IMG/VR virus record: IMGVR_UViG_3300009151_000188 | Span: 1 to 36,359 of that record | Length of the DNA: 36,359 bases | Source: a virus | Direction: 5' to 3' (one strand) | Part shown: one piece after another, positions 1,840-26,011 of the stretch | Numbering within the stretch: the stretch's first letter is position 1 | Layout of the letters: every line of letters starts with the position of its first letter | Notes under the pieces: generated by a model | Told to the model about the DNA's origin: nothing | Seen by the model: only the letters and a program-made list of their open reading frames with translations | Databases searched by the model: none | Position numbers and translations under genes: made by a program

Positions 1840-1911
1840 ATAAAACCCCGCTGTAAGGTAGTGCTATATACACACTCGATACACTGGATAAAACCCCGCT
1901 GTAAGGTAGTG
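1840..1911 (+). repeat. 24-bp direct repeat pair
   Basis: Identical 24-bp copies at 1840-1863 and 1888-1911 (core CCCCGCTGTAAGGTAGTG), period 48 bp. Degenerate relatives occur at about 1963-1975 (AACCCGCTGTAACCC) and 1998-2015 (AACCCCGCTGCACAGGTG). In the second copy the AACCC can pair with GGGTT at 1914-1918, placing the GGTAGTG part in the loop. Confidence 0.85.
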
Positions 1912-1913
1912 TA

Positions 1914-2016
1914 GGGTTACACTATCAGGAGTAGTTGATACCCTGTCCGGAGGACCCCTGAAGGGGAATAACCCGCTGTAACCCTAGGGCATATATGCAA
2001 AAACCCCGCTGCACAG
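1914..2016 (+). other. Cluster of potential RNA hairpins
   Basis: Several short inverted repeats lie in a row: AGGGT...ACCCT enclosing TATCA/TGATA with loop GGAGTAGT (about 1914-1943), GTCC-GGA-GGAC, CCCCT-GA-AGGGG, CCCTAGGG and GCATATATGC. There is no long U-tract, so this is not a simple intrinsic terminator. It could be a structured transcript downstream of the HNH gene or protein-binding palindromes. Confidence 0.5.
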
Positions 2017-2259
2017 GTGGGCGGAGGACCAAAGAAAATACTTAGATGCGCTGTAGAGTATTTGGCGATAGCCTGTCTACGGTGTCAACCATTCTGTCGC
2101 ACTATAGCAACGATTTTCTACGATTTTCCGCCCTAGATTAGACAATTTTTGCGCATTCTGGGGCCAAAATCCCTCTGAAATGGTGTCAAATACTACCAAA
2201 ACCTGCTCAAAAACCTGGTGATTCTGTGGTGAAATAGCAACGGCGTCAACAACTCTTGA

Positions 2260-2288: not shown

Positions 2289-2302
2289 AAGTACATAGTG
2301 TA

Positions 2303-2331
2303 GAGACAGTGTGTCGAGTATATAGTATAAT
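2303..2331 (+). promoter_or_regulatory. Second candidate promoter upstream of the tRNA
   Basis: GAGACA (2303-2308), 17-bp spacer, TATAAT (2326-2331). It lies in a region so rich in TATA that a chance -10 is likely. Confidence 0.3.
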
Positions 2332-2358
2332 ATATAGTGTGTTGAGTGACTCTACGCT

Positions 2359-2394
2359 ATATAGTGTATATAGTGTATATAGTGTATATAGTAG
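2359..2394 (+). repeat. 9-bp tandem repeat, AT-rich
   Basis: Three exact copies of ATATAGTGT (2359-2385) followed by a degenerate fourth (ATATAGTAG). Related TATATAGTGT words occur through 2330-2400 and again at about 16401-16418. This easily melted tract next to the DnaA-box array is a candidate DNA-unwinding element. Confidence 0.8.
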
Positions 2395-2406
2395 TGTGTA
2401 TACAGT

Positions 2407-2483
<77 letters not shown>

Positions 2484-2487
2484 TTGA

Positions 2488-2541
2488 TCAACCTTTCACT
2501 ACGTAAGACCGACTTGTCCACAGGTTATTCAACCTTTCACT
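2488..2541 (+). repeat. 41-bp imperfect tandem duplication
   Basis: TCAACCTTTCACT occurs at 2488-2500 and 2529-2541. Each copy is followed by a related stretch ending in GACTT and a DnaA box (2514 and 2555). The unit is 41 bp, so the left edge of the DnaA array grew by duplication. Confidence 0.7.
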
Positions 2542-2704
2542 GCACAGGATCGACTTATTCACAAGTTATCCACAGGGTTTCTGGTTATCCACAGCTTATT
2601 CACAAGTTGTCCACAAGTTATCCACAGGGCAGAGTTATTCACAAGTTGTCCACAGCTTATCCACAATTTTCTGTTATCCACAGGATACTCACAGCTTATC
2701 CACA
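2514..2704 (+). other. DnaA-box array: putative origin or DnaA-titration site
   Basis: Twelve same-strand 9-mers match the bacterial DnaA box TTATNCACA or a one-base variant. TTATCCACA starts at 2566, 2585, 2618, 2657, 2674 and 2696. TTATTCACA starts at 2555, 2596 and 2635. TTGTCCACA starts at 2514, 2607 and 2646. Degenerate boxes start at 2525 (TTATTCAAC) and 2685 (ATACTCACA). Most start-to-start steps are 11 bp, with a few of 17 or 19, so boxes face the same side of the helix head to tail. The order TTATTC, TTGTCC, TTATCC is used twice (2596-2626 and 2635-2665). Cooperative DnaA binding is expected from knowledge of oriC and datA. Whether it initiates replication or titrates DnaA is inference. 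Confidence 0.85.
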
Positions 2705-2912
2705 GCCTGCTTCAACGACCAAGTACTGCGCAGAGTGCATTGTACTGCTCAAACCTTACAGGCTCCTTACGACCACACGACCATTGTGGTCATTAAAGAC
2801 TCGCGCACCCTCCACGTCCACCCCAGGCCTGCTTTCGAATATGAGTGTATTATAGCAGGGTTTCCTTACAGGAACCTTACAACCCTGAAGGCAGTGTGGG
2901 ATTAGAAAGCGG
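2705..2912. other. Non-coding stretch with two hairpins
   Basis: No gene seen. GACCACA (2771-2777) pairs with TGTGGTC (2785-2791). A second nested hairpin has stem CAGGGTT (2856-2862) with AACCCTG (2881-2887) and an inner stem TTCCT/AGGAA (2862-2866/2870-2874). These may separate the array transcriptionally from the first early promoter. Confidence 0.5.
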
Positions 2913-2941
2913 TTGACAGTGAGTGCAAACGGCCTTATAAT
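2913..2941 (+). promoter_or_regulatory. Early promoter P1
   Basis: TTGACA 2913-2918, 17 bp, TATAAT 2936-2941, followed by the standard CTTACACACACTAGGAG leader. First unit of the array. Confidence 0.9.
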
Positions 2942-2968
2942 AACAGCTTACACACACTAGGAGCACGT

Positions 2969-3130
2969 ATGCAAGTAAAACAGGAAATTTTAGCACTACT
3001 GATGCAGGTTGAGCAATTGCTGCTGGAAGCACAGTGCGATGGCAAACAGTTTGCAGAGCTGGACTGTTTTGAAGAAGCAGACCTGGCAGTAGCACACTTA
3101 ACACAAGTGGTTGACTATTACGTAGATTAA
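2969..3130 (+). CDS. Small early protein, 53 aa
   Basis: Not recognised. Begins MQVKQEILALLMQVEQLLLE, which looks like one amphipathic, leucine-rich helix (residues 4-21) and might oligomerise. The rest is acidic with a closing DYYVD. The ATG follows AGGAG (2959-2963) by 5 nt. The last codons contain the -35 box of the next promoter. Reported because the promoter, leader and spacing match the rest of the array. Confidence 0.75.
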   Translation: MQVKQEILALLMQVEQLLLEAQCDGKQFAELDCFEEADLAVAHLTQVVDYYVD

Positions 3131-3139
3131 TGTTATAAT
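3111..3139 (+). promoter_or_regulatory. Early promoter P2
   Basis: TTGACT 3111-3116 inside the preceding gene, 17 bp, TATAAT 3134-3139. Confidence 0.85.
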
Positions 3140-3166
3140 ACAGTTTTAACACACTAAGGAGCACTT

Positions 3167-3553
3167 ATGCAAGTTTTTACTACACTGCACACAGACGGTG
3201 GCGGTTACTGGTCGCGCACTGCAAAGTCCGTAGACATTACTAAACTGGACCTGCAGTACTGCACAGCGGAGCGGGATTTTGGCGAGCTGTGCGTATACTT
3301 TACAGGGGACACTTGGGACTGTGCTAAAATGGGTCTAATTTACACAGACCGGCAGTTTATGCGGGAATTGCAAGCATACCTGCAGACTTTGGGCTTTAGT
3401 GAAGCTGAAGCTAAAGATGTAAGTTACAGCGAGCAGGGTATGCAAACAGGCCGCTATGTGAGTTGTGATGTAGGGTCTACATTTATTGCAGGCCTTGCAC
3501 GTTTGGACCCTGTGCACGTGGCCGCTGTAGTTGCTGAGTGCTGGGACATTTAA
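3167..3553 (+). CDS. Early protein of unknown function, 128 aa
   Basis: No family recognised. A mixed alpha/beta protein with several Cys residues (about 32, 43, 52 and near the C-terminus) and no membrane segment. Residues 80-93 (LGFSEAEAKDVSYS) look helical. Monocistronic between two consensus promoters; AAGGAG lies 5 nt before the ATG. The stop is followed directly by a GC hairpin and the next promoter. Confidence 0.8.
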   Translation: MQVFTTLHTDGGGYWSRTAKSVDITKLDLQYCTAERDFGELCVYFTGDTWDCAKMGLIYTDRQFMRELQAYLQTLGFSEAEAKDVSYSEQGMQTGRYVSCDVGSTFIAGLARLDPVHVAAVVAECWDI

Positions 3554-3554
3554 A

Positions 3555-3575
3555 GACCCTACAGGGAGCAGGGTC
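3555..3575 (+). terminator. Hairpin after the 3167 gene
   Basis: GACCCT (3555-3560) pairs with AGGGTC (3570-3575) around a 9-nt loop, 2 nt after the stop. There is no clear U-tract, so it may only attenuate read-through. A near copy follows the next gene. Confidence 0.4.
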
Positions 3576-3580
3576 ATTAG

Positions 3581-3609
3581 TTGACACTGTTCCCGTTCTG
3601 TTGTATAAT
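3581..3609 (+). promoter_or_regulatory. Early promoter P3
   Basis: TTGACA 3581-3586, 17 bp, TATAAT 3604-3609. Confidence 0.9.
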
Positions 3610-3637
3610 AACGGCTTACACACACTAGGAGTTGATG

Positions 3638-3751
3638 ATGCGTACACTGATAGACATACTGATTGATTTGAAAAATGCTATTGCAGTAGCAGACATAGAA
3701 ACAGCAGAAGATTTAGCAAACGAAGCACTAGATTTTGCTACACAGGAATAA
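3638..3751 (+). CDS. Very small acidic early protein, 37 aa
   Basis: Begins MRTLIDILIDLKNAIAVADI: an aliphatic helix, then an acidic, alanine-rich tail. Too short to assign to a family. Two ATGs stand in tandem (3635, 3638); the second is 6 nt after AGGAG, the spacing used across the array, and was chosen. Evidence for a gene is the complete promoter, leader and ribosome binding site. Confidence 0.65.
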   Translation: MRTLIDILIDLKNAIAVADIETAEDLANEALDFATQE

Positions 3752-3769
3752 CCCTACAGTGCACAGGGT
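3751..3769 (+). terminator. Hairpin after the 37-aa gene
   Basis: ACCCT (3751-3755) and AGGGT (3765-3769) pair around a loop containing GTGCAC. It starts on the stop codon and resembles the hairpin at 3555. No U-tract is seen. Confidence 0.35.
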
Positions 3770-3775
3770 CTTTGG

Positions 3776-3804
3776 TTGACGCTGTGCACTTTTGGCATTA
3801 TAAT
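3776..3804 (+). promoter_or_regulatory. Early promoter P4
   Basis: TTGACG 3776-3781, 17 bp, TATAAT 3799-3804. Confidence 0.85.
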
Positions 3805-3830
3805 GTATGCTTACACACTAAGGAGCGCTT

Positions 3831-4094
3831 ATGTTAACAGTTGATCAAACTACACGTTCGTACACAGGTCGTCCAGGATGTATGTGCGGCTGCATGGGCA
3901 CGTACAATGAGAGCCTGCGTGCCCGCAAAATGGCCATTACGGCCTTGCTTAAAAATCCAGCAGTTCGTTACGACACGTGGTGTGGTGGTACAGAGGGCGC
4001 CCTGTTTGTAGTTACTGCGACCCGCAACCGTGTACTGTACTTGACAGAGGCGGGCGTGAAAACTGTGCAGGCACTGGGCGTAAAGTCCGAGTAA
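3831..4094 (+). CDS. Early protein of unknown function, 87 aa
   Basis: Not recognised. Residues 17-22 (CMCGCM) and Cys51 give a cysteine-rich N-terminal half that could bind zinc. The middle (AITALLKNP) is helical and the C-terminus is beta-rich (FVVTATRNRVLYL). AAGGAG precedes the ATG in the standard leader. Monocistronic, between two array promoters. Confidence 0.8.
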   Translation: MLTVDQTTRSYTGRPGCMCGCMGTYNESLRARKMAITALLKNPAVRYDTWCGGTEGALFVVTATRNRVLYLTEAGVKTVQALGVKSE

Positions 4095-4101
4095 ACTGTA
4101 G

Positions 4102-4125
4102 GGGCAAGGGTTGACAGCCTTGCCC
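4102..4125 (+). promoter_or_regulatory. Hairpin enclosing a -35 box
   Basis: GGGCAAGG (4102-4109) is complementary to CCTTGCCC (4118-4125). The -35 hexamer TTGACA (4111-4116) lies in the 8-nt loop. In a read-through transcript this would be a stable stem; on DNA it is a palindrome centred on the -35. Confidence 0.6.
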
Positions 4126-4139
4126 TAAGGCGTTATAAT
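4111..4139 (+). promoter_or_regulatory. Early promoter P5
   Basis: TTGACA 4111-4116, 17 bp, TATAAT 4134-4139. The spacer contains GCCTT/AAGGC. Confidence 0.9.
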
Positions 4140-4166
4140 AACAGCTTACACACACTAGGAGTAGAT

Positions 4167-4451
4167 ATGTTCACTACAGACAACCAAGTAGCACTCAAAG
4201 CAGAGTTGGATCAGATGTACGCAGATCAGGGCGCTGCGTTCACCTCAGGTTACCTGAACAGCATGGCACAGGAAATGCTGAACCTTATGCCCAAGCGCCA
4301 GCAGAAGGCATTTATCAAACAGGTTGCTACCTTCAACGGTCGCCAGCTGGTCACTGTGAAAAACTGTTTGACTGGTGCAGACGTTGAGATCCGCAGGGAA
4401 GACAGGGGCACGGTAAACGATCCTAGCATGGAACGATTCCACTCAATGTGA
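4167..4451 (+). CDS. Early protein of unknown function, 94 aa
   Basis: Not recognised. The first two-thirds are helical (residues 5-52, including KRQQKAFIKQV), followed by a short beta region (RQLVTVKNCLTGADVEIRR) that looks like an SH3-type strand pair. No membrane segment. Monocistronic, with the standard leader (TAGGAGTAGAT before the ATG). Confidence 0.8.
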   Translation: MFTTDNQVALKAELDQMYADQGAAFTSGYLNSMAQEMLNLMPKRQQKAFIKQVATFNGRQLVTVKNCLTGADVEIRREDRGTVNDPSMERFHSM

Positions 4452-4453
4452 GG

Positions 4454-4482
4454 TTGACAGGGACTGGGTTCCCTGTCATAAT
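4454..4482 (+). promoter_or_regulatory. Early promoter P6 with 9-bp palindrome
   Basis: TTGACA 4454-4459, 17 bp, CATAAT 4477-4482. TGACAGGGA (4455-4463) and TCCCTGTCA (4470-4478) form a perfect 9-bp inverted repeat with a 6-nt centre that reaches into both hexamers. Confidence 0.88.
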
Positions 4483-4510
4483 AACGGCTTACACACACTA
4501 AGGAGCAGAG

Positions 4511-4705
4511 ATGGCAAGAGCAGATCAAATCCATACCGCACTGGACGAGCTGGAAGCAGCCGCACAAGTCTTCATTGAAGCCATTGCAGAGTTCAAGCGC
4601 ACATACACACCCAACACGGTGGATCTCTTGGCTTGGCAAGCGGGCATTGAAGACGTCGTGTACGAGATCCAGGAAGACATTGAAGTAGAGTTGGAAAGCC
4701 GTTGA
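4511..4705 (+). CDS. Acidic helical early protein, 64 aa
   Basis: Not recognised. Strongly acidic and probably two helices (about residues 4-30 and 38-63, ending IQEDIEVELESR). The stop TGA (4703-4705) is part of the next -35 box TTGACA. AAGGAG in the standard leader precedes the ATG. Confidence 0.8.
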   Translation: MARADQIHTALDELEAAAQVFIEAIAEFKRTYTPNTVDLLAWQAGIEDVVYEIQEDIEVELESR

Positions 4706-4730
4706 CAGTTTGAGCAAACGGTTGTATAAT
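4702..4730 (+). promoter_or_regulatory. Early promoter P7, overlapping a stop codon
   Basis: TTGACA 4702-4707 contains the TGA of the 4511 gene; 17 bp; TATAAT 4725-4730. The spacer has GTTT-GAGC-AAAC. Confidence 0.9.
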
Positions 4731-4758
4731 ACAGACTTACACACACTAAGGAGCTGAT

Positions 4759-4974
4759 ATGACACGTGAAGCAACTACTAGACTGCTGTCTATGATGGAT
4801 GAGGGTCTCATCTCTGCAGAGGCAGTGGCTGAGATGGCCCTTGCTTATATGAGTGAGGATGAGGTGGCAGACATGATGCGAAGCAACGACATCCTGGATG
4901 AGGATGAGGAAGACGAGTATGATGGCCAGCCCGACGAAGCCCAAGAGTGGGCAGACTTTGATCCTGAATGCTAA
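4759..4974 (+). CDS. Highly acidic early protein, 71 aa
   Basis: The N-terminal 43 residues are helical (ATTRLLSMMDEGLISAEAVAEMALAYM). Residues 44-71 are almost entirely Asp/Glu-rich (LDEDEEDEYDG, then DEAQEWADFDPEC). Such dense acidity is seen in DNA-mimic phage proteins, but also in many unrelated small proteins, so no function is assigned. First gene of a two-gene unit with 4985. Confidence 0.8.
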   Translation: MTREATTRLLSMMDEGLISAEAVAEMALAYMSEDEVADMMRSNDILDEDEEDEYDGQPDEAQEWADFDPEC

Positions 4975-4984
4975 GGAGTAAGAC

Positions 4985-5188
4985 ATGAGCGGTGCATTCT
5001 TCTTCATTGAATACCAAGATGGTCATGTAACTGAGATCGAGTTTAAAGATCCAGCAAAGGCTCGAAAGGCCTATAAGAACTATGCAAAGCAACCTGAGGA
5101 CACGGCTAAGAGTTGGGGATGGGACACCAAATACGAAGCGCCCACCTTGACTCAGCAGATTCGTGCAAAAAAGGCATTGACAGTCTAG
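4985..5188 (+). CDS. Early protein of unknown function, 67 aa
   Basis: Not recognised. A beta-rich start (GAFFFIEYQDGHVTEIEF) is followed by a Lys/Ala-rich helix (DPAKARKAYKNYAKQ). Net basic, unlike its acidic partner 4759; the two are 10 nt apart and share one promoter. Its own AAGGAG lies upstream of the ATG. The -35 of the next promoter is within its last codons. Confidence 0.8.
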   Translation: MSGAFFFIEYQDGHVTEIEFKDPAKARKAYKNYAKQPEDTAKSWGWDTKYEAPTLTQQIRAKKALTV

Positions 5189-5205
5189 GCAAATGATCGT
5201 ATAAT
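5177..5205 (+). promoter_or_regulatory. Early promoter P8
   Basis: TTGACA 5177-5182 within the 4985 gene, 17 bp, TATAAT 5200-5205. The leader after it is divergent (CTTCAACAACGCACTTAGGAG). Confidence 0.9.
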
Positions 5206-5237
5206 ACATACTTCAACAACGCACTTAGGAGAACACT

Positions 5238-5528
5238 ATGTCCATTCAAACTATCAACGCAGAAATCCTCGCAGGTAACTTTACCAATGACCAACTGTCC
5301 CTCATCATTGACGCTGTCAAGTTCGCTCGTGCACGACTGATGGAAGTAAACAAGCGCAGTCTGCAGATTGGCGACAATGTCAACTTTACGTCCAGCAAGA
5401 CAGGGCAGAACATTACGGGCGTGGTGATGAAGATTGCTATCAAGTTCGTCACTGTTAAAACGGTGCAGGGTCTGTGGCGTGTTCCAGCTAATATGCTGTC
5501 AAAGGTTGAAGACCGAGAATTTGCATAA
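5238..5528 (+). CDS. Early protein with small beta-barrel look, 96 aa
   Basis: Residues 1-38 are helical. Residues 43-88 (IGDNVNF, GQNITGVVMKI, VTVKT, WRVPANML) have the spacing of a KOW/SH3-like five-stranded barrel, often a nucleic-acid or protein-binding module. This is a pattern-based guess, not a family assignment. Monocistronic with the array promoter and AGGAG site. Confidence 0.8.
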   Translation: MSIQTINAEILAGNFTNDQLSLIIDAVKFARARLMEVNKRSLQIGDNVNFTSSKTGQNITGVVMKIAIKFVTVKTVQGLWRVPANMLSKVEDREFA

Positions 5529-5533
5529 AAGGC

Positions 5534-5562
5534 TTGACAGGGGAACGAGCCCCTGTTATAAT
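5534..5562 (+). promoter_or_regulatory. Early promoter P9 with 7-bp palindrome
   Basis: TTGACA 5534-5539, 17 bp, TATAAT 5557-5562. ACAGGGG (5537-5543) pairs with CCCCTGT (5550-5556). Confidence 0.9.
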
Positions 5563-5592
5563 AACGACTTACACAGCAACTAAGGAGCAGAG

Positions 5593-5850
5593 ATGAAAGC
5601 ATTGCAAGCATACGTGGATCAGAAGAACCGTTGGAACGCGATCTTCAACGGCAAACAATATGAGATCGTGAGCAAGTTTGGTCGCCAGGAAGTGGCTGGT
5701 ATGTTGGACGCAGACTTGAGTCCAGAGAACTTGACCTGCGATGGCGAACTGCCCCGTGCAGAAGTCAATCGTCGCTATCGGGAACTGACTGGTGCCGCAC
5801 GGGACTTGATCAAGTTGGATCCCACTGTTAAGATGTACGAATTTGCCTAA
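5593..5850 (+). CDS. Early protein of unknown function, 85 aa
   Basis: Not recognised. Mostly helical and charged; residues 52-74 (GELPRAEVNRRYRELTGAARD) are Arg-rich and could contact nucleic acid. It ends with MYEFA, like the REFA end of the preceding gene. Standard AAGGAG site. Confidence 0.8.
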   Translation: MKALQAYVDQKNRWNAIFNGKQYEIVSKFGRQEVAGMLDADLSPENLTCDGELPRAEVNRRYRELTGAARDLIKLDPTVKMYEFA

Positions 5851-5854
5851 GGTG

Positions 5855-5883
5855 TTGACACAGGAGCGATCCTGTGTTACAAT
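5855..5883 (+). promoter_or_regulatory. Early promoter P10 with 8-bp palindrome
   Basis: TTGACA 5855-5860, 17 bp, TACAAT 5878-5883. ACACAGGA (5858-5865) and TCCTGTGT (5870-5877) with a 4-nt centre. Confidence 0.88.
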
Positions 5884-5910
5884 ACACACTTACACACTAA
5901 GGAGCACACG

Positions 5911-6093
5911 ATGACTTGGGAAGACTTGAAAGACATGATCAAAGACTTCACTGAAGAACAGCTGAAGCAGACAGTGACTATCTATGTAAGCGGCGTGGGC
6001 GAATACTACGCTCCCGTAGGCGACTATCCCCTAGTTGAAAGCGACGACACCTGTGACGTGTTGGACCCTGGTCACAAATACCTTGTAATCTAA
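5911..6093 (+). CDS. Acidic early protein, 60 aa
   Basis: Not recognised by name. A helical start (WEDLKDMIKDFTEEQLKQTV) is followed by a beta-rich part with aromatic residues (YYAPVGDYPLVES) and a C-terminal GHKYLVI. Similar layouts occur in small T4-superfamily proteins, including the 8866 gene here (elements LIEQLQVLDQDAEV then a beta part). First of three co-transcribed genes. Confidence 0.8.
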   Translation: MTWEDLKDMIKDFTEEQLKQTVTIYVSGVGEYYAPVGDYPLVESDDTCDVLDPGHKYLVI

Positions 6094-14027: not shown

Positions 14028-14174
14028 ATGATCAAATCCATCCCAAGCTCCACTGGCGGTGTCATTACTCCTCTCATCGAAAAGGGTGTCCAGGTTGGCA
14101 TCCGACACACCGCTGGCAAGGCCTACACTGGCAAGATTGCCCAGCAGGAAGCCCGACAAAAGAAGGTCAAATAA
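14028..14174 (+). CDS. Basic small early protein, 48 aa
   Basis: MIKSIPSSTGGVITPLIEKG, then a Gly/Lys/Gln-rich basic stretch ending QQEARQKKVK. Strongly positive, so it may bind nucleic acid or membranes, but no motif is recognised. The ribosome binding site is AAGGAA. Supported by a full promoter and leader. Confidence 0.7.
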   Translation: MIKSIPSSTGGVITPLIEKGVQVGIRHTAGKAYTGKIAQQEARQKKVK

Positions 14175-14187
14175 ATTACCTAAAGGC

Positions 14188-14216
14188 TTGACGAACACTA
14201 CGAACGGCCTTATAAT
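14188..14216 (+). promoter_or_regulatory. Early promoter P29
   Basis: TTGACG 14188-14193, 17 bp, TATAAT 14211-14216. Confidence 0.85.
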
Positions 14217-14247
14217 ACTAGCATTGCAACACACTAAGGAGCACACT

Positions 14248-15072
14248 ATGCCAAGAGGTTACAGAAACGATGGTCAACCCCGCCAACGTCGAGATGGTTC
14301 TGGTCCACTAACTGCAAAGGTCACTATGCCCGTAAGCCAAGTCGTTCCCTCACGCTTTTCCATTAACCAACGCTTTGGCTTTGTCACTGACATGGTCAAT
14401 ATGGTGGCACAGGGCACCCAAGCAAGTGTAGTTATTTGCGGCCCTGGCGGACTAGGCAAGAGTCATACTGTTATGACCGCACTGAAAAACAAGGGCTTCC
14501 AGGACATTACACTGGCAGATAATAATACCCGCGCAAACAAGAGTTATACTGTGGTCAAAGGCTATAGTACTGCAAAAGGCCTGTTCCGTTTACTGTGGGA
14601 AAACAAAGACGGCGTACTGGTATTTGACGACTGCGATTCAGTATTAAAAGATCCAGTTAGTCTCTCGCTATTGAAAAGCGCATTGGACAGTTATAGCCGC
14701 CGTGTTATTACTTGGCGCGCAGACTTTAAAGACGACGATATTCCCAACAGTTTCCTGTTTACTGGTCGTGTAGTATTCATTTCCAATATGAACACGCAAC
14801 AGTTAGACCAAGCGGTGGTAACTCGTAGTTTGTGCGTGGACTTGAGTATGACCACACTGCAAAAGGTCGAGCGTATGCAACACTTATTGACCAACGCAGA
14901 CTTTATGCCCGAGTATGAAATGAATCATAAACGGGATGCCATGCAGTTAATTGCCCGTGTGCAAGACAGCGTTAAAGAGCTGAGCCTGCGTACACTGATC
15001 CAATGCGTTAAGATCCGCACTGCTAATACCCGTAACTGGGAAGAACTGGCAGAGTACGCGATCTGCGGCTAA
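14248..15072 (+). CDS. AAA-type ATPase, 274 aa
   Basis: Walker A GPGGLGKSH at residues 65-73 (K71, S72), Walker B VLVFDDCDS at 123-131, a sensor-1-like strand VVFISNMN and arginines (VVTRSL) where an arginine finger would sit. This is an AAA+ core with a basic, disordered N-terminal tail (MPRGYRNDGQPRQRRD). It resembles AAA ATPases that T4-superfamily phages carry in their early regions, whose partner is unknown. Possible roles are remodelling host replication complexes or helping load proteins on DNA. It is by far the largest gene of the array. The ATG at 14248 has AAGGAG; the longer upstream reading frame is the shadow of the 48-aa gene. Confidence 0.85.
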   Translation: MPRGYRNDGQPRQRRDGSGPLTAKVTMPVSQVVPSRFSINQRFGFVTDMVNMVAQGTQASVVICGPGGLGKSHTVMTALKNKGFQDITLADNNTRANKSYTVVKGYSTAKGLFRLLWENKDGVLVFDDCDSVLKDPVSLSLLKSALDSYSRRVITWRADFKDDDIPNSFLFTGRVVFISNMNTQQLDQAVVTRSLCVDLSMTTLQKVERMQHLLTNADFMPEYEMNHKRDAMQLIARVQDSVKELSLRTLIQCVKIRTANTRNWEELAEYAICG

Positions 15073-16496: not shown

Positions 16497-17441
16497 TCAG
16501 CGCTTCGCGCTTCGCGCAGGGACGTCAGCTAACGTCCTAGCCAATCCTTGACTTAATGTGTATTGGGGATGCCAGTACAGTTCTTTTTGGATTTTGGTAC
16601 AGTCAATACTGTATCTTCTATCGTGGCCCTTACGATCTTCCACGTGATCTATTAAGCTATAGGGCTTGTCCAGTAAGTCACATATCATCTTTACCAGCTC
16701 AATATTGGTAATTTCTTGGTGATCTGCTTGTCCAATGTTATATACTTGGCCTGGCTGGCCTTTATCTGCCACTTGTGTCAATGCTAGGCAGTGATCCCGT
16801 ACATAGAGCCAATCTCTTATTTGTAAGCCATCTCCATACACGGGTACTGGTTTATTCGCTTGTAAACTGCGGATGATAGTGGGAATCATCTTTTCTTGGT
16901 GCTGTCTCGGACCATAGTTGTTGGAGCAGTGGGTAATTATGGCAGGTAGATTATAAGTATGGTGCCAAGCTGTAACTAGATGGTCAGAGGCAGCTTTGGT
17001 AGCACTGTAGGGATTACGAGTGTGGTATGGGGTCAATTCGTTGGTACTGCCCTGGGCCACGTGTCCATATACTTCATCAGTGCTTATGTGTATAAAGCGT
17101 TCCACTGGGTATTTGACCACAGCATTGAGCAAGTTTGCAGTGCCAATAATGTTACTTTGAATAAAAGGGGCAACATCTAGTATACTGTTGTCCACGTGAG
17201 TTTCGGCAGCTAGATGATAAACTAGGGAGATATCATACTTGCGAAATATGTATTCCAGTGGTATGTTGTCAGTGAGATCCACTATTTCTGTGGGGATATT
17301 TCTCGCCTTTAAAGAATCGTAATAGGCAGCATTGGCCGCATAGCCCAAGTTATCTAAAGCCACTACAGACTGCCCTTGTTCTTCCAGTAGATCAACTAGG
17401 TGGCTACCAATAAAACCCAGTGCACCAGTTACCAGTATCAT
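16497..17441 (-). CDS. dTDP-glucose 4,6-dehydratase-like enzyme (RmlB type)
   Basis: 314 residues, an extended SDR enzyme that would convert an NDP-hexose to the 4-keto-6-deoxy sugar. The NAD-binding motif TGALGFIG is at residues 5-12. STDEVYG (120-126) includes the T-D-E triad typical of dehydratases. YSATK at 145-149 supplies the catalytic Tyr and Lys. NNYGPRQ and RDWLYVRDH match RmlB. Slightly shorter than bacterial RmlB (about 350). The start overlaps the next gene upstream by 4 nt (ATGA). Together with the heptose genes it suggests that this phage alters surface sugars or makes modified sugars. The exact nucleotide sugar is not proved. Confidence 0.88.
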   Translation of the reverse strand: MILVTGALGFIGSHLVDLLEEQGQSVVALDNLGYAANAAYYDSLKARNIPTEIVDLTDNIPLEYIFRKYDISLVYHLAAETHVDNSILDVAPFIQSNIIGTANLLNAVVKYPVERFIHISTDEVYGHVAQGSTNELTPYHTRNPYSATKAASDHLVTAWHHTYNLPAIITHCSNNYGPRQHQEKMIPTIIRSLQANKPVPVYGDGLQIRDWLYVRDHCLALTQVADKGQPGQVYNIGQADHQEITNIELVKMICDLLDKPYSLIDHVEDRKGHDRRYSIDCTKIQKELYWHPQYTLSQGLARTLADVPARSAKR

Positions 17442-18700: not shown

Positions 18701-19279
18701 ATGAGTACACAGTTATCTAATTTTTATTCAGGGCAGTTATTAGTGGCCAACCCCAATAATCCACGGGATGAGTTATCAAAAAGTGTAAGTTTAATTGTCA
18801 GCCATAATCGCCATTTGGCCCTAGCATTACAGTTAAACAATAGCCTGGTTCATATGACACTACACGAAGTGGCTGAAAACACTGGACTTGATACCAGTAG
18901 TTCTGCCAGCAGATTAGGCGTGCCTTTGTACTATGGTGGTGTTCATAATATACATAGGGTCCAAATAATCCACACGCCAGATTGGCGTGGACCCACTACT
19001 ACCGTACTAAACAAAGAAATTGCCATTACCAGCGACCTCAGTATATTGCAAGCATTGAGTCAAGGATATGGTCCCAAATTATTTAGAGCATGTGCAGGCT
19101 ACTGGAGTTGGGAAGATGGCAAACTGGATAATCAATTGGACAACAGTAACCAAGATGAAACGCATCGCTGGGAAATTGCCGACGCCAATATTGAAACCGT
19201 ATTTAAAATAGACAGCGATCAACAATGGCAACTTGGTCTAATCAATGCTGCACATATAACCACTGCCCAATGGCTTTAA
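18701..19279 (+). CDS. YqgE/AlgH-like protein, 192 aa
   Basis: The start GQLLVANPNNPRDELSKSVS (11-30), then LIVSHNRHLALALQLNN (31-47), and the later block ITSDLSILQALSQG with CAGYWSWEDGKLDNQL match the YqgE/AlgH (DUF179) layout, including the G-x-W-x-x-G-x-L signature. YqgE function in bacteria is unclear; AlgH was described as a regulator. It is one of only two plus-strand genes in the right half. Its stop codon overlaps the stop of the helicase gene (convergent, 3 shared bases). No ribosome binding site was seen, and a weak AGTAAATA octamer precedes it. Confidence 0.8.
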   Translation: MSTQLSNFYSGQLLVANPNNPRDELSKSVSLIVSHNRHLALALQLNNSLVHMTLHEVAENTGLDTSSSASRLGVPLYYGGVHNIHRVQIIHTPDWRGPTTTVLNKEIAITSDLSILQALSQGYGPKLFRACAGYWSWEDGKLDNQLDNSNQDETHRWEIADANIETVFKIDSDQQWQLGLINAAHITTAQWL

Positions 19280-23032: not shown

Positions 23033-23591
23033 TCTTTTCACAAATCAAATTCAATTGCACTACAATAACACTTGCATAGGAAATTGAATGACTCTTCTTA
23101 AAGAAATAGGTATCGTCAGTCTTAGTCCAAATTTCATCTTGGATCGCTTGGAAGCCCTGCTCCTTGCATATTGGAACGAGATGTTTCTTCCCAGGTCGCA
23201 TCATAGCCAAGACCATAGCTAACTCAGTTACACTTTTTGGCGCAAGACTGGCTACCAATGTATGATATCCATTAATATGGAATAATTGATCGCACACTTC
23301 TTTCTCGCCTAGCAATTCCCAAAGTGGTTCAGTATTCAGCAATTGAACTAAATGGTCTTCATCTCTAACACCTTGATAAGCACTGACATTCAAAAAGTCA
23401 ATCTTAAAATATCCTCTTGATTCAGCAGTCTTATAATCAATACTGGCTTGCCCAGTCAGTGGATTAACGGGAATAGGTTGACAATAAACACCTGTGTTAT
23501 GTTTGCGTCCATCTTCCAAAGTGGCAGGAATATGTTTAATGATGTCTAACACACCATTACGATTTGCAAAGTCTAAATCAATATCCGGCAA
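23013..23591 (-). CDS. Miniature DnaE-like (C-family polymerase) protein, 192 aa
   Basis: The first residues PDIDLDF match the C-family polymerase catalytic motif PD.D.DF (PDFDVDF in E. coli DnaE). Residues 57-68 (ESRGYFKIDFLN) match the segment with the third catalytic Asp (VKFDFLG). ELAMVLAMMRPGKK (123-136) matches ELVA..RPGP. FFKKSHSISYA (163-173) matches FNKSHAAAYA. Thus landmarks of a roughly 500-residue DnaE core are packed into 192 residues. All three catalytic Asp (D3, D5, D65) are kept. The start must be TTG: an in-frame stop lies two codons upstream. Its first codons overlap the heptose kinase gene. Whether it polymerises DNA is unknown. Confidence 0.75.
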   Translation of the reverse strand: MPDIDLDFANRNGVLDIIKHIPATLEDGRKHNTGVYCQPIPVNPLTGQASIDYKTAESRGYFKIDFLNVSAYQGVRDEDHLVQLLNTEPLWELLGEKEVCDQLFHINGYHTLVASLAPKSVTELAMVLAMMRPGKKHLVPICKEQGFQAIQDEIWTKTDDTYFFKKSHSISYASVIVVQLNLICEKISYGYS

Positions 23592-24372
23592 TTCTTATCT
23601 CATCATAGGTTGGTGCATAATTACCGCGGTGTTGAACTGTTATGCTTGCAGCGGTGTTAGCAAACATTATAGCAATTTTTATGTTTCCTGTCAATAGGTA
23701 TTGATAAGTTAGCGCTGCCAAAAAAGTATCCCCTGCACCGCACACATCTGCTACTTCAACTTTAGTTGTTCGATATGTTTTGCCTTTATATTGAGCACCT
23801 TTGTCTCCTAACGTAACAATAACATTGTCGCCAAGTGTTTTGGCATTCTTAAATTCAAGTTCGTTAATTTTGATATAAACGTGGGGTGACTGGAATGGGC
23901 GGGCGATGTCTGCTAATCTAGTTTTCTTTGTATCAATAAAGACTGGACACGAAACTTGTCTAACGAGGTCTTCTATTTCATCATAACGTAAAAAACCCTT
24001 ATCATAATCTGATATCACAATGGCATCATAACTTGTAATAGGGTCCGATGTTTTGCCACTCCAGTGAACAATTTTGGGTTCATCATCCACTCTTAGTAAA
24101 TGTTGTCCTGATCGTTTATCAATATATCTAGTCTTTTTAATGACGGCATCGTTAGTAATGAACTCTGCATCAATGCCTAACTGTTTAAGATTATTATATA
24201 CGTTAGCAGCCATACCAGGCACTGTTGTAGTTTCAACATCCTTGATAACTGGCACTGGTGCTTCTGGACTCAGTCTATCAACTGTTCCAATCTTATATTC
24301 ATCAATGCAACTATCACCGATCAGTAATACTTTGAATAATTTTTGTGCTGGAGTATTCTTCAATTCTGTCAT
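23578..24372 (-). CDS. hldE1: PfkB-family heptose-7-phosphate kinase (HldE kinase domain)
   Basis: 264 residues. The N-terminal RLSPEAPVPVI (33-43) and PGMAANVYNNL (52-62) match the RfaE/HldE kinase half. DVCGAGDTF at 209-217 is the PfkB second signature with catalytic Asp215. Would phosphorylate D-glycero-beta-D-manno-heptose 7-phosphate at C1. In bacteria this domain is usually fused to the nucleotidyltransferase; here they are separate genes. It overlaps the transferase gene by 59 nt and precedes the mini-DnaE gene. Shorter than the bacterial kinase domain (about 315). Confidence 0.85.
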   Translation of the reverse strand: MTELKNTPAQKLFKVLLIGDSCIDEYKIGTVDRLSPEAPVPVIKDVETTTVPGMAANVYNNLKQLGIDAEFITNDAVIKKTRYIDKRSGQHLLRVDDEPKIVHWSGKTSDPITSYDAIVISDYDKGFLRYDEIEDLVRQVSCPVFIDTKKTRLADIARPFQSPHVYIKINELEFKNAKTLGDNVIVTLGDKGAQYKGKTYRTTKVEVADVCGAGDTFLAALTYQYLLTGNIKIAIMFANTAASITVQHRGNYAPTYDEIRIAGY

Positions 24373-24712
24373 ACCAATGTATCTTTTTAACGTATTGTTC
24401 TGCTACTACGCTTTTGCCTCGCCAATCACTACCCTTAACCATAATGTCTGGCTGGTAAAGTTTAAGTAATCTAATAAGGTCTTCTTGACTGTCAAATAGT
24501 TCTACAATATCTACAGCCTTTAAATTTTGTAGCATTATTCTGCGAAAGTTTTGATCGTTGATAGGTCGCTTATCGCCCTTAAGTTCTTTAACACGGCTGT
24601 CAGTATCGATACATACAACAAGGTAGTCACCTAAACTACGGGCCGTGTTTAGCATAGCAATATGCCCCGGATGGAGAATATCGAATGTACCATTTACAAT
24701 CACTGTAGTCAT
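24314..24712 (-). CDS. hldE2: RfaE2-type heptose-1-phosphate nucleotidyltransferase
   Basis: 132 residues. NGTFDILHPGHIAML (7-21) carries the HxGH motif (H14, H17) of the cytidylyltransferase-like fold. KGSDWRGKSVV matches the second active-site loop. Would attach AMP to heptose-1-phosphate to give ADP-D-glycero-beta-D-manno-heptose. ATG 24712 overlaps the stop of the epimerase gene (4 nt). The long upstream alternative start adds 12 residues from that gene's frame and was rejected. Confidence 0.88.
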   Translation of the reverse strand: MTTVIVNGTFDILHPGHIAMLNTARSLGDYLVVCIDTDSRVKELKGDKRPINDQNFRRIMLQNLKAVDIVELFDSQEDLIRLLKLYQPDIMVKGSDWRGKSVVAEQYVKKIHWYDRIEEYSSTKIIQSITDR

Positions 24713-25476
24713 GGATAATGCTTTCTTAACTTGGTCACGTCTGCACAAGTATATTTTTGATACTGTGTTTTAAGGTCATCTGGCATTGGGATATATTCAA
24801 TCTTTGCTTCTAGACCTTCAGCAATAGTTTCTGCAATATGTTGGAATGACTGTGGCTTGCCTGTTCCCACATTCCATATACCAGACTCTTGTACATTAAA
24901 GAATTTCTTGTGTACATTGATTACTTCGCTGACTGGAACAAAATCACGTAGGAATTGGTCACTACCTTCAAACAATTTAATAACACCAGTCTCTTCTGCT
25001 TGCTTAGTAAACTTATGATGTGGACTAGGTTGATCTTTATGATCTTCGTGAGGGCCGTAAACATTGAAGTAACGGAAACCTTGTACACGAATGTCCTTAA
25101 AGTTTTGCGACATCACACTTCTATCAAATAGGTATTTGCTCCAAGCATAGGGACTTGCAGGATTTGGCGGGGTATTTTCACTAAAATTATTAGTCAGCCC
25201 GTATACGCTGGCACTGCTGGCATATTGCAAGTTAACACCATTTTCTATGCAGGCTAACAGTGTTAGACAACTAAAGTCATGATTTTGTCTCATAACTTTT
25301 TCTACATCTCGTTCGTTAGTGCTACTAATTGCACCTAAGTGAATACACCAATCTAAACCAGCAAAGTTTGGAGGAGCATCACCCCAGTTGTAAAAAGAAA
25401 GTTCGTGGTCGTCTTTAAGTGCATTGACCATATTTTGGCCAATAAAACCTTTATGACCCGTAATTAAGATTTTCAT
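24709..25476 (-). CDS. hldD: HldD-like ADP-heptose 6-epimerase
   Basis: 255 residues. The NAD(P)-binding start ITGHKGFIG is at residues 5-13. SSASVYG (87-93) and YAWSK (110-114) give the SDR Tyr/Lys pair. RYFNVYGPHEDHKDQPSPHH and F.RDFV match HldD. It would epimerise C6 of ADP-heptose to the L-glycero form used in LPS inner core. Shorter than E. coli HldD (310). Start overlaps the cupin gene by 4 nt. Confidence 0.88.
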   Translation of the reverse strand: MKILITGHKGFIGQNMVNALKDDHELSFYNWGDAPPNFAGLDWCIHLGAISSTNERDVEKVMRQNHDFSCLTLLACIENGVNLQYASSASVYGLTNNFSENTPPNPASPYAWSKYLFDRSVMSQNFKDIRVQGFRYFNVYGPHEDHKDQPSPHHKFTKQAEETGVIKLFEGSDQFLRDFVPVSEVINVHKKFFNVQESGIWNVGTGKPQSFQHIAETIAEGLEAKIEYIPMPDDLKTQYQKYTCADVTKLRKHYP

Positions 25477-25832
25477 TTCTGACTATCGCCTTTTCCTACA
25501 CGGTAATTATCTGCTATACTATCAGGCATACTAACTTCAATAATTGTTCCTTCTTCAATACATATCAATTGATGAGGTAACAGCGGAACATTATGCCAAG
25601 TATCTCCCACATTTAATTCATGGGCTTGTACATCTGCTGTTTTAGTATCGATAATCTTAACAATAAACTTTCCACTTAGTACATACCAAGATTCTTCTTT
25701 CTCAGAATGAAAGTGCATACTAAATTTTGCGCCTGTATTAAAATTCATTAACTTGCCGCAGTACTTGTCAGTGGTGGCCCAAATTAATTCGCTGCCCCAA
25801 CCCTTTTTTACAAAGCCTTCTAATCTTATCAT
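25473..25832 (-). CDS. Sugar-pathway cupin, 119 aa
   Basis: Single cupin resembling the C-terminal half of mannose-6-phosphate isomerase/guanylyltransferase proteins: WGSELIWATTDKYCGKLMNF, then HFHSEKEESWYVLSG (motif 1, about residues 40-54) and H..PLLPHQL (motif 2). A sugar-phosphate isomerase or binding role in the heptose pathway is inferred from position. ATG 25832 was chosen because GGAG lies 9 nt upstream. Confidence 0.75.
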   Translation of the reverse strand: MIRLEGFVKKGWGSELIWATTDKYCGKLMNFNTGAKFSMHFHSEKEESWYVLSGKFIVKIIDTKTADVQAHELNVGDTWHNVPLLPHQLICIEEGTIIEVSMPDSIADNYRVGKGDSQK

Positions 25833-26011
25833 TCTGGTATCTCCGTAAATCTCAATAGGAAACTTTCCATATAACAACTATATTCAGTACCAGTATCTTG
25901 CTCTCGATAATAGATCCACGTATGATCTTCGATTTCCTTTGTGTATATTACACAGAATATTTTACGGCTATCCGCGCCGCACCACTTGCTTCCATCTTTT
26001 GGTATTTTCAT
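25829..26011 (-). CDS. Small unknown protein, 60 aa
   Basis: Begins MKIPKDGSKWCGADSRKIFC. It then reads as a small beta barrel (VIYTKEIEDHTWIYYREQD, then CYMESFLLRFTEIPE). The end resembles the DUF1653-type F-L-x-R-F-x-x-x-P pattern, but this is uncertain. AAAGGA is upstream of the ATG; the stop overlaps the cupin start by 4 nt. Confidence 0.65.
   Translation of the reverse strand: MKIPKDGSKWCGADSRKIFCVIYTKEIEDHTWIYYREQDTGTEYSCYMESFLLRFTEIPE

Follow-up and report, generated by a model that had tools for sequence, protein, structure and literature searches.

A same-strand DnaA-box array beside a conserved promoter and putative RNA element in a T4-type jumbo phage

Genes and features of the locus

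We analysed a stretch of 36,359 bp, referred to here as the window, which is a complete IMG/VR virus record, the record itself being a fragment. The window encodes UvsX, a gp32-type SSB, a UvsW-type helicase, a DnaB/gp41-type helicase, a gp61-type primase, and a piece of a DNA polymerase, bearing out the preliminary description of a T4-type phage that encodes a helicase and primase of its own. The source is a T4-type jumbo phage; the window helicase has 54% identity to those of PA5oct-type jumbo phages and 72-89% to those of many IMG/VR contigs. Replication without DnaA is classically exemplified by T4-type phages.

The subject of this analysis is a non-coding array of DnaA boxes in a gap of ~1.2 kb without clear genes. 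See Table 1 for the features of this region. Minus-strand genes, along with a weak HNH ORF, lie on one side of the gap, and a plus-strand region of small ORFs lies on the other. Several of these small ORFs carry consensus sigma70 promoters, and from 2900 to 6000 there is a run of small ORFs, each with a near-consensus TTGACA-17-TATAAT promoter and a similar leader (TTACACACACTAAGGAGCA) upstream. To the left of the array, the AAAACCCCGCTGTAA repeats adjoin the tRNA-Met gene, an arrangement whose synteny is kept in divergent relatives (G059, 347,497-347,716; L393, 4481-5016). Relatives of the left-hand protein encoded at 657-974 were searched for and none were found.

Table 1. Features in and around the box array (window coordinates)
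Feature	Position	Strand	Remark
AAAACCCCGCTGTAA repeats	1840-2021	+	Left of array; syntenic in G059 and G042
AT-rich TATATAGTG repeats	2292-2407	.	Possible unwinding element, statistically unremarkable
tRNA-Met (CAT)	2407-2483	+	Left of array
DnaA-box array	2514-2704	+	12 TTRTYCACA boxes plus two degenerate
Array box starts	2514, 2555, 2566, 2585, 2596, 2607, 2618, 2635, 2646, 2657, 2674, 2696	+	
Degenerate boxes	TTATTCAAC at 2525, ATACTCACA at 2685		In 11-bp register with neighbours
21-nt repeat CCTTACAGGCTCCTTACGACC	2754-2774	+	One of two flanking the core
Invariant core GGGRTGGACGTRGAGGSTG	2806-2824	-	Of putative small RNA or leader
TTCGAA plus short hairpin (AG-CAGGC-CT)	2825-2839	-	Same RNA element
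-10 box TATAAT, extended TG	2849-2854	-	Read from sequence; no good -35
Second 21-nt repeat copy CCTTACAGGAACCTTACAACC	2864-2884	+	In the -35 region of the minus-strand promoter

Composition and spacing of the box array

A box scan recovered the twelve same-strand boxes and two degenerate ones originally described in these 191 bp. All twelve lie within one mismatch of TTATCCACA, and six match it perfectly. The TTRTYCACA motif is found nowhere else in the 36,359 bp. In 400 dinucleotide shuffles of the window, it appeared 2.3 times in total on average and never more than three times in any 191 bp. The shuffles rule out chance or a compositional artefact as the source of the array, in agreement with the first assessment that it was unlikely to be fortuitous.

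The boxes fall into five blocks (2514/2525, 2555/2566, 2585-2618, 2635-2657, and 2674-2696) with 11-bp steps within each, and the blocks are mutually offset by 17-30 bp. The array had been called phased. This holds within the blocks but not across the whole array, which is not on one helix face overall (coherence R = 0.32 at 10.5 bp). There are also internal duplications of 41 and ~39 nt, showing that tandem copying contributed part of the array.

A conserved promoter and putative RNA element adjoins the array

The most informative neighbour of the array is a linked promoter/RNA element that the preliminary description missed. About 100 bp to the right of the array, the minus strand carries, in order, TATAAT, TTCGAA with a short hairpin, and GGGGTGGACGTGGAGGGTG. 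An IMG/VR scan for the core, made independently of the DnaA boxes, returned 50 stretches, with one or two core copies per record. The ends of the linker are complementary in 28 of 30 distinct linkers, against a mean of 3.7 and a maximum of 9 in shuffles, and therefore the hairpin has been maintained through base changes. RNAalifold gave no structure on a MAFFT alignment of the element because the hairpin was misaligned; pairing the linker ends directly revealed it. Single-sequence folding energies of the element were no better than those of shuffles, and comparison with Rfam 15 yielded no family match.

Nearly all core copies with enough upstream sequence (44 of 46; null, 3.5%) have a sigma70-type promoter with at least 10 of 12 matches, mostly 7-13 or 36-51 nt before the TCGA. 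In the window, the -10 box is perfect and extended, and the -35 is poor and overlaps the 21-nt repeat; this -10 was read from the sequence, as the promoter scan scored a different, weaker site. The predicted window promoter points at the array, with a predicted start near 2842 on the minus strand. An intrinsic terminator lies ~50-70 nt past some arrayless core copies (L271, L277), and the window copy is without one. Given these sequence features, the element is most aptly described as a putative small RNA or leader.

The window copy (2806-2854, minus strand), L241-L288, and L382 form a putative new small-RNA family with a covarying hairpin and a sigma70-type promoter. In PA5oct, Atu_ph07, Phosso, XaC1, and Vibrio 2.275.O, the element was absent at one mismatch, and allowing three mismatches gave stray matches only. 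We considered Methylophilaceae as the host, but this assignment rests on one binned 4.9-kb contig with the RNA element and is too weak.

Boxes are linked to the core

Of 47 distinct cores, 13 are followed on the 3' side by two or more boxes within ~320 bp, and two thirds of the cores are without boxes. Across 17 core-bearing records (2.5 Mb) there are nine box-pair clusters, eight of which are 71-323 bp away from a core (P about 1e-17; for one of the eight, in G067, the core copy has one mismatch). The exception is G059, where 14 kb separate core and array. In the window, the boxes face the opposite way, with respect to the core, from those in most relatives. Many boxless cores have a palindrome like GTTAGTNNGYGCNNACTAAC on the 3' side instead; it stands directly 3' of the core, in the box position, in L244, L247, L248, L252, L257, L264, L276, L277, L286, and L394. 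The core itself occurs in two replication-gene backgrounds, one with DnaB at 61-72% identity to that of the window (G057-G060) and one at 26-28% (G053, G062, G066), and so the element has either moved between phage groups or is old.

This arrangement bears on whether array-bound DnaA regulates or blocks the conserved-RNA transcript or neighbouring early transcription. Such control would suit a promoter directed at the array, a first box at +73 from the core (as in L073, L254, and L288), and the palindromic, operator-like site that other phages have in the box position. However, the boxes lie beyond the RNA core and away from the promoter, arrays of 7-12 boxes exceed what a roadblock would need, and the 14 kb between core and array in G059 does not fit. 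We consider transcription control unlikely as the main role of the array.

The array in related phages

Relatives had been proposed as a place to look for the array, and this search found one in G059. This 353-kb record is largely collinear with the window (UvsX 88%, SSB 81%, UvsW 75%, and DnaB 72%). The replication block of G059 occupies 305-321 kb and the early region 331-344 kb, followed by an array at 346,750-347,015, then tRNA-Leu, tRNA-Met, and tRNA-Leu, and finally three copies of ACCCCGCTG. The array has 11 boxes at the syntenic place, with order and orientation matching the window, and all 11 lie on one helix face (best period 10.6 bp, R 0.95, P < 0.0005). By eye, the inter-box sequence of G059 and that of the window are unalignable. 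A syntenic array with different spacers is the strongest evidence that selection keeps the boxes. Moreover, two other related phages, L288 and L254, differ at 2 of 72 box columns versus 16 of 32 spacer columns, the compared stretches being of equal length (Fisher P = 2e-8). These comparisons show selection on the boxes in the relatives.

A second relative, G042 (AAA+ protein 79%), has the ACCCCGCTG repeats and tRNA-Met, with array and core absent at the orthologous site. The cassette is therefore accessory, either gained or lost. The preliminary description had held that loss of the array in close relatives with no fitness change would speak against a function; G042 supplies the absence in that argument. 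No box pairs at 11-bp steps were found in 33 helicase relatives, most of which are fragments that may not reach the region. As the close relatives are all metagenomic records and possibly incomplete, absence is weak evidence, and the scans may have left out the records nearest to the window.

The internal duplications, together with the missing array in G042, would be expected if the array arose by neutral repeat expansion of a chance DnaA-like motif. We regard this origin as highly improbable, since it runs against the box-specific conservation between L288 and L254, the syntenic array of G059 despite its different spacers, and the linkage of boxes to the core.

The candidate binder and box arrays in other phages

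DnaA domain IV (PF08299) was not found in 16 phage records, including the window, and was found in 10 of 14 control genomes. This rejects a phage-encoded DnaA as the binder, which would then be host DnaA. Host DnaA probably binds the array, to the predicted benefit of the phage. The idea of a DnaA-binding array in a T4-type phage is supported, as predicted binding, by the boxes and by the selection in relatives.

Runs of three boxes at 11-bp steps occur in at least 119 IMG/VR stretches from many unrelated groups, but 60 bacterial genomes from a single family had no such run. Unrelated viral contigs (L006-L124; 31-member group including L010, L023, L046, and L062) have arrays of up to 13 boxes, and in L046, L018, and L014 the array is near terminase and portal genes. 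Among isolated phages, box clusters are present in T7-like Berlinviruses, Lactococcus AM1, and Vibrio BD5, which also have several TTATCCACA, mostly in one orientation. The Berlinviruses P483, A7, and nasanit (L384, L385, L388) have 5-8 DnaA-like boxes in one orientation near the terminase end. Phage T5 likewise has DnaA boxes in its genome, in the injection stop signal (PMC13250531). Unlike the array phage, to which they are unrelated, the Berlinviruses, AM1, BD5, and T5 have fewer perfect boxes and no shared RNA element is known.

An array of this kind could serve as a sink that titrates host DnaA, increasingly so as phage genomes multiply, and either blocks host replication rounds or alters DnaA-controlled transcription. 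Twelve boxes per incoming genome are few relative to the cellular DnaA pool, which counts against a sink. So does the lack of a datA-like IHF site, and a sink leaves the promoter/RNA linkage, the uniform box polarity, and the helix phasing unexplained. Yet the boxes are dense and high-affinity, the presence of the array is accessory, and arrays recur across many unrelated phage contigs. A sink would also fit the increase in initiation mass caused by plasmids that carry DnaA boxes, and the large amount of DnaA titrated by datA (PMC5835720). On balance, we find titration a rather unlikely role, with somewhat better prospects than transcription control.

Comparison with known origins and DnaA-binding sites

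We compared the locus with several known systems. An ordered, same-strand cluster of DnaA boxes is present, as in DnaA-dependent origins, and as in bacterial oriC the high-affinity boxes are head to tail with 2-bp spacers (11-bp steps). The array differs from oriC in its denser boxes and in having no unwinding element above background. AT-rich sequence beside arrays was not above background, as same-size windows reach the same AT content in 21-96% of cases, and an oriC-type unwinding element was rejected on this basis. No GC-skew turn was seen at the core in seven long relatives, but skew there seems to track gene strand and so says nothing clear about an origin; replication by T4-type recombination may also erase such a signal. 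Clustered DnaA boxes outside an origin recall datA and DARS of E. coli, but the array has more perfect boxes and adjoins a phage promoter/RNA element. There is also no IHF consensus near the array, the only two sites in the window being at 23.4 and 28.7 kb, and the lack of a nearby site rules out a datA copy. Neither a classic oriC nor a datA appears to gain support from an unwinding element, an IHF site, or skew.

According to its description (PMC13250531), the T5 injection stop signal comprises repeats, palindromes, and DnaA boxes, all of which are present here. The locus has been weighed as a DNA-entry pause site of the kind proposed for that signal; in its favour, DnaA boxes occur together with repeats, palindromic repeats, and a tRNA at the border of the early region. 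Two-step entry, though, is without support in this phage group, and a pause site is possible but unsupported and very unlikely.

The locus also resembles the T4 origins, which combine a promoter with an unwinding element and whose transcript stays as an R-loop that primes synthesis; UvsW unwinds or removes these R-loops late (PMC3016281). T4 oriE contains 12-nt repeats at even spacing, whose role is undefined, together with an early promoter (PMC3016281). Our locus shares with oriE the T4-type replication genes, a cluster of short direct repeats, a nearby putative early-type promoter, conservation in syntenic regions of related phages, and, for the window array, a position near a transcription-strand switch (PMC3016281). 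This position is not general in relatives; the sigma70 promoter is strong in relatives and reduced to its -10 in the window. Further differences from oriE are that the repeats are DnaA boxes and not T4 12-mers, that a conserved RNA element is linked, and that the origin role of the array is a candidate one.

A proposed role in phage replication

Because the window shares much of the T4-origin parts list, with DnaA boxes as the repeats, we tentatively favour the array as a DnaA-assisted, transcription-coupled start of phage replication, with somewhat less than even confidence. We infer a series of DnaA binding, transcript, R-loop, and replication start. At the border of the early region, host DnaA would bind the array head to tail and in a cooperative manner, and the nearby sigma70-type promoter would send the conserved-RNA transcript across it. 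The DnaA-distorted, transcribed DNA could then open for the phage helicase, primase, and polymerase. The transcript would act as R-loop primer as in T4 origins, with DnaA boxes replacing the oriE-type iterons. Such a start is supported by the promoters, directed at the array, that precede almost every copy of the core. Further support comes from the twelve same-strand boxes confined to the array, the one-face syntenic array of G059, the box conservation between L288 and L254, the linkage of boxes to the core, the T4-type replication genes including UvsW, and the lack of a DnaA domain among the phage records searched. Against it stand the lack of an AT-rich element and of a skew turn, the absence from G042, the boxless two thirds of cores, the reversed box orientation relative to the core, the G059 core-array distance, and the poor -35 of the window.

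In a broader and more doubtful version of this replication start, the locus may represent an undescribed jumbo-phage origin module. It would comprise a sigma70-driven conserved small RNA and exchangeable sites for host proteins (DnaA boxes or palindromes), borrowing host DnaA, in at least two distantly related groups.

If boxes are indeed kept by selection at a fixed place, some T4-type phages would exploit the host initiator or put it out of action. The role of the iterons in T4-type origins, a long-standing question, would become accessible to tests with a named protein. The linked RNA element provides a new marker that is easy to recognise, and the locus directs attention to similar arrays in many more uncultivated phages.

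Other genes in the window

The PHROG 1250 AAA+ protein (14059-15072) was considered as a dedicated helicase loader and rejected, as its sequence and fold match only generic AAA+ proteins (RFC, ORC, dynein, and NorQ). It is present at 53-64% in G053, G062, and G066, that is, across jumbo-phage groups with replication genes only ~26% alike, and its gene is near the RNA core in G059 and G066. Genes for sugar-nucleotide functions (epimerases, a PfkB-type kinase, and a cupin/cysteine-dioxygenase-like protein) lie among the replication genes at 16497-17441 and 23578-25877, and an AlgH/DUF179-like phage gene is located at 18701-19279.
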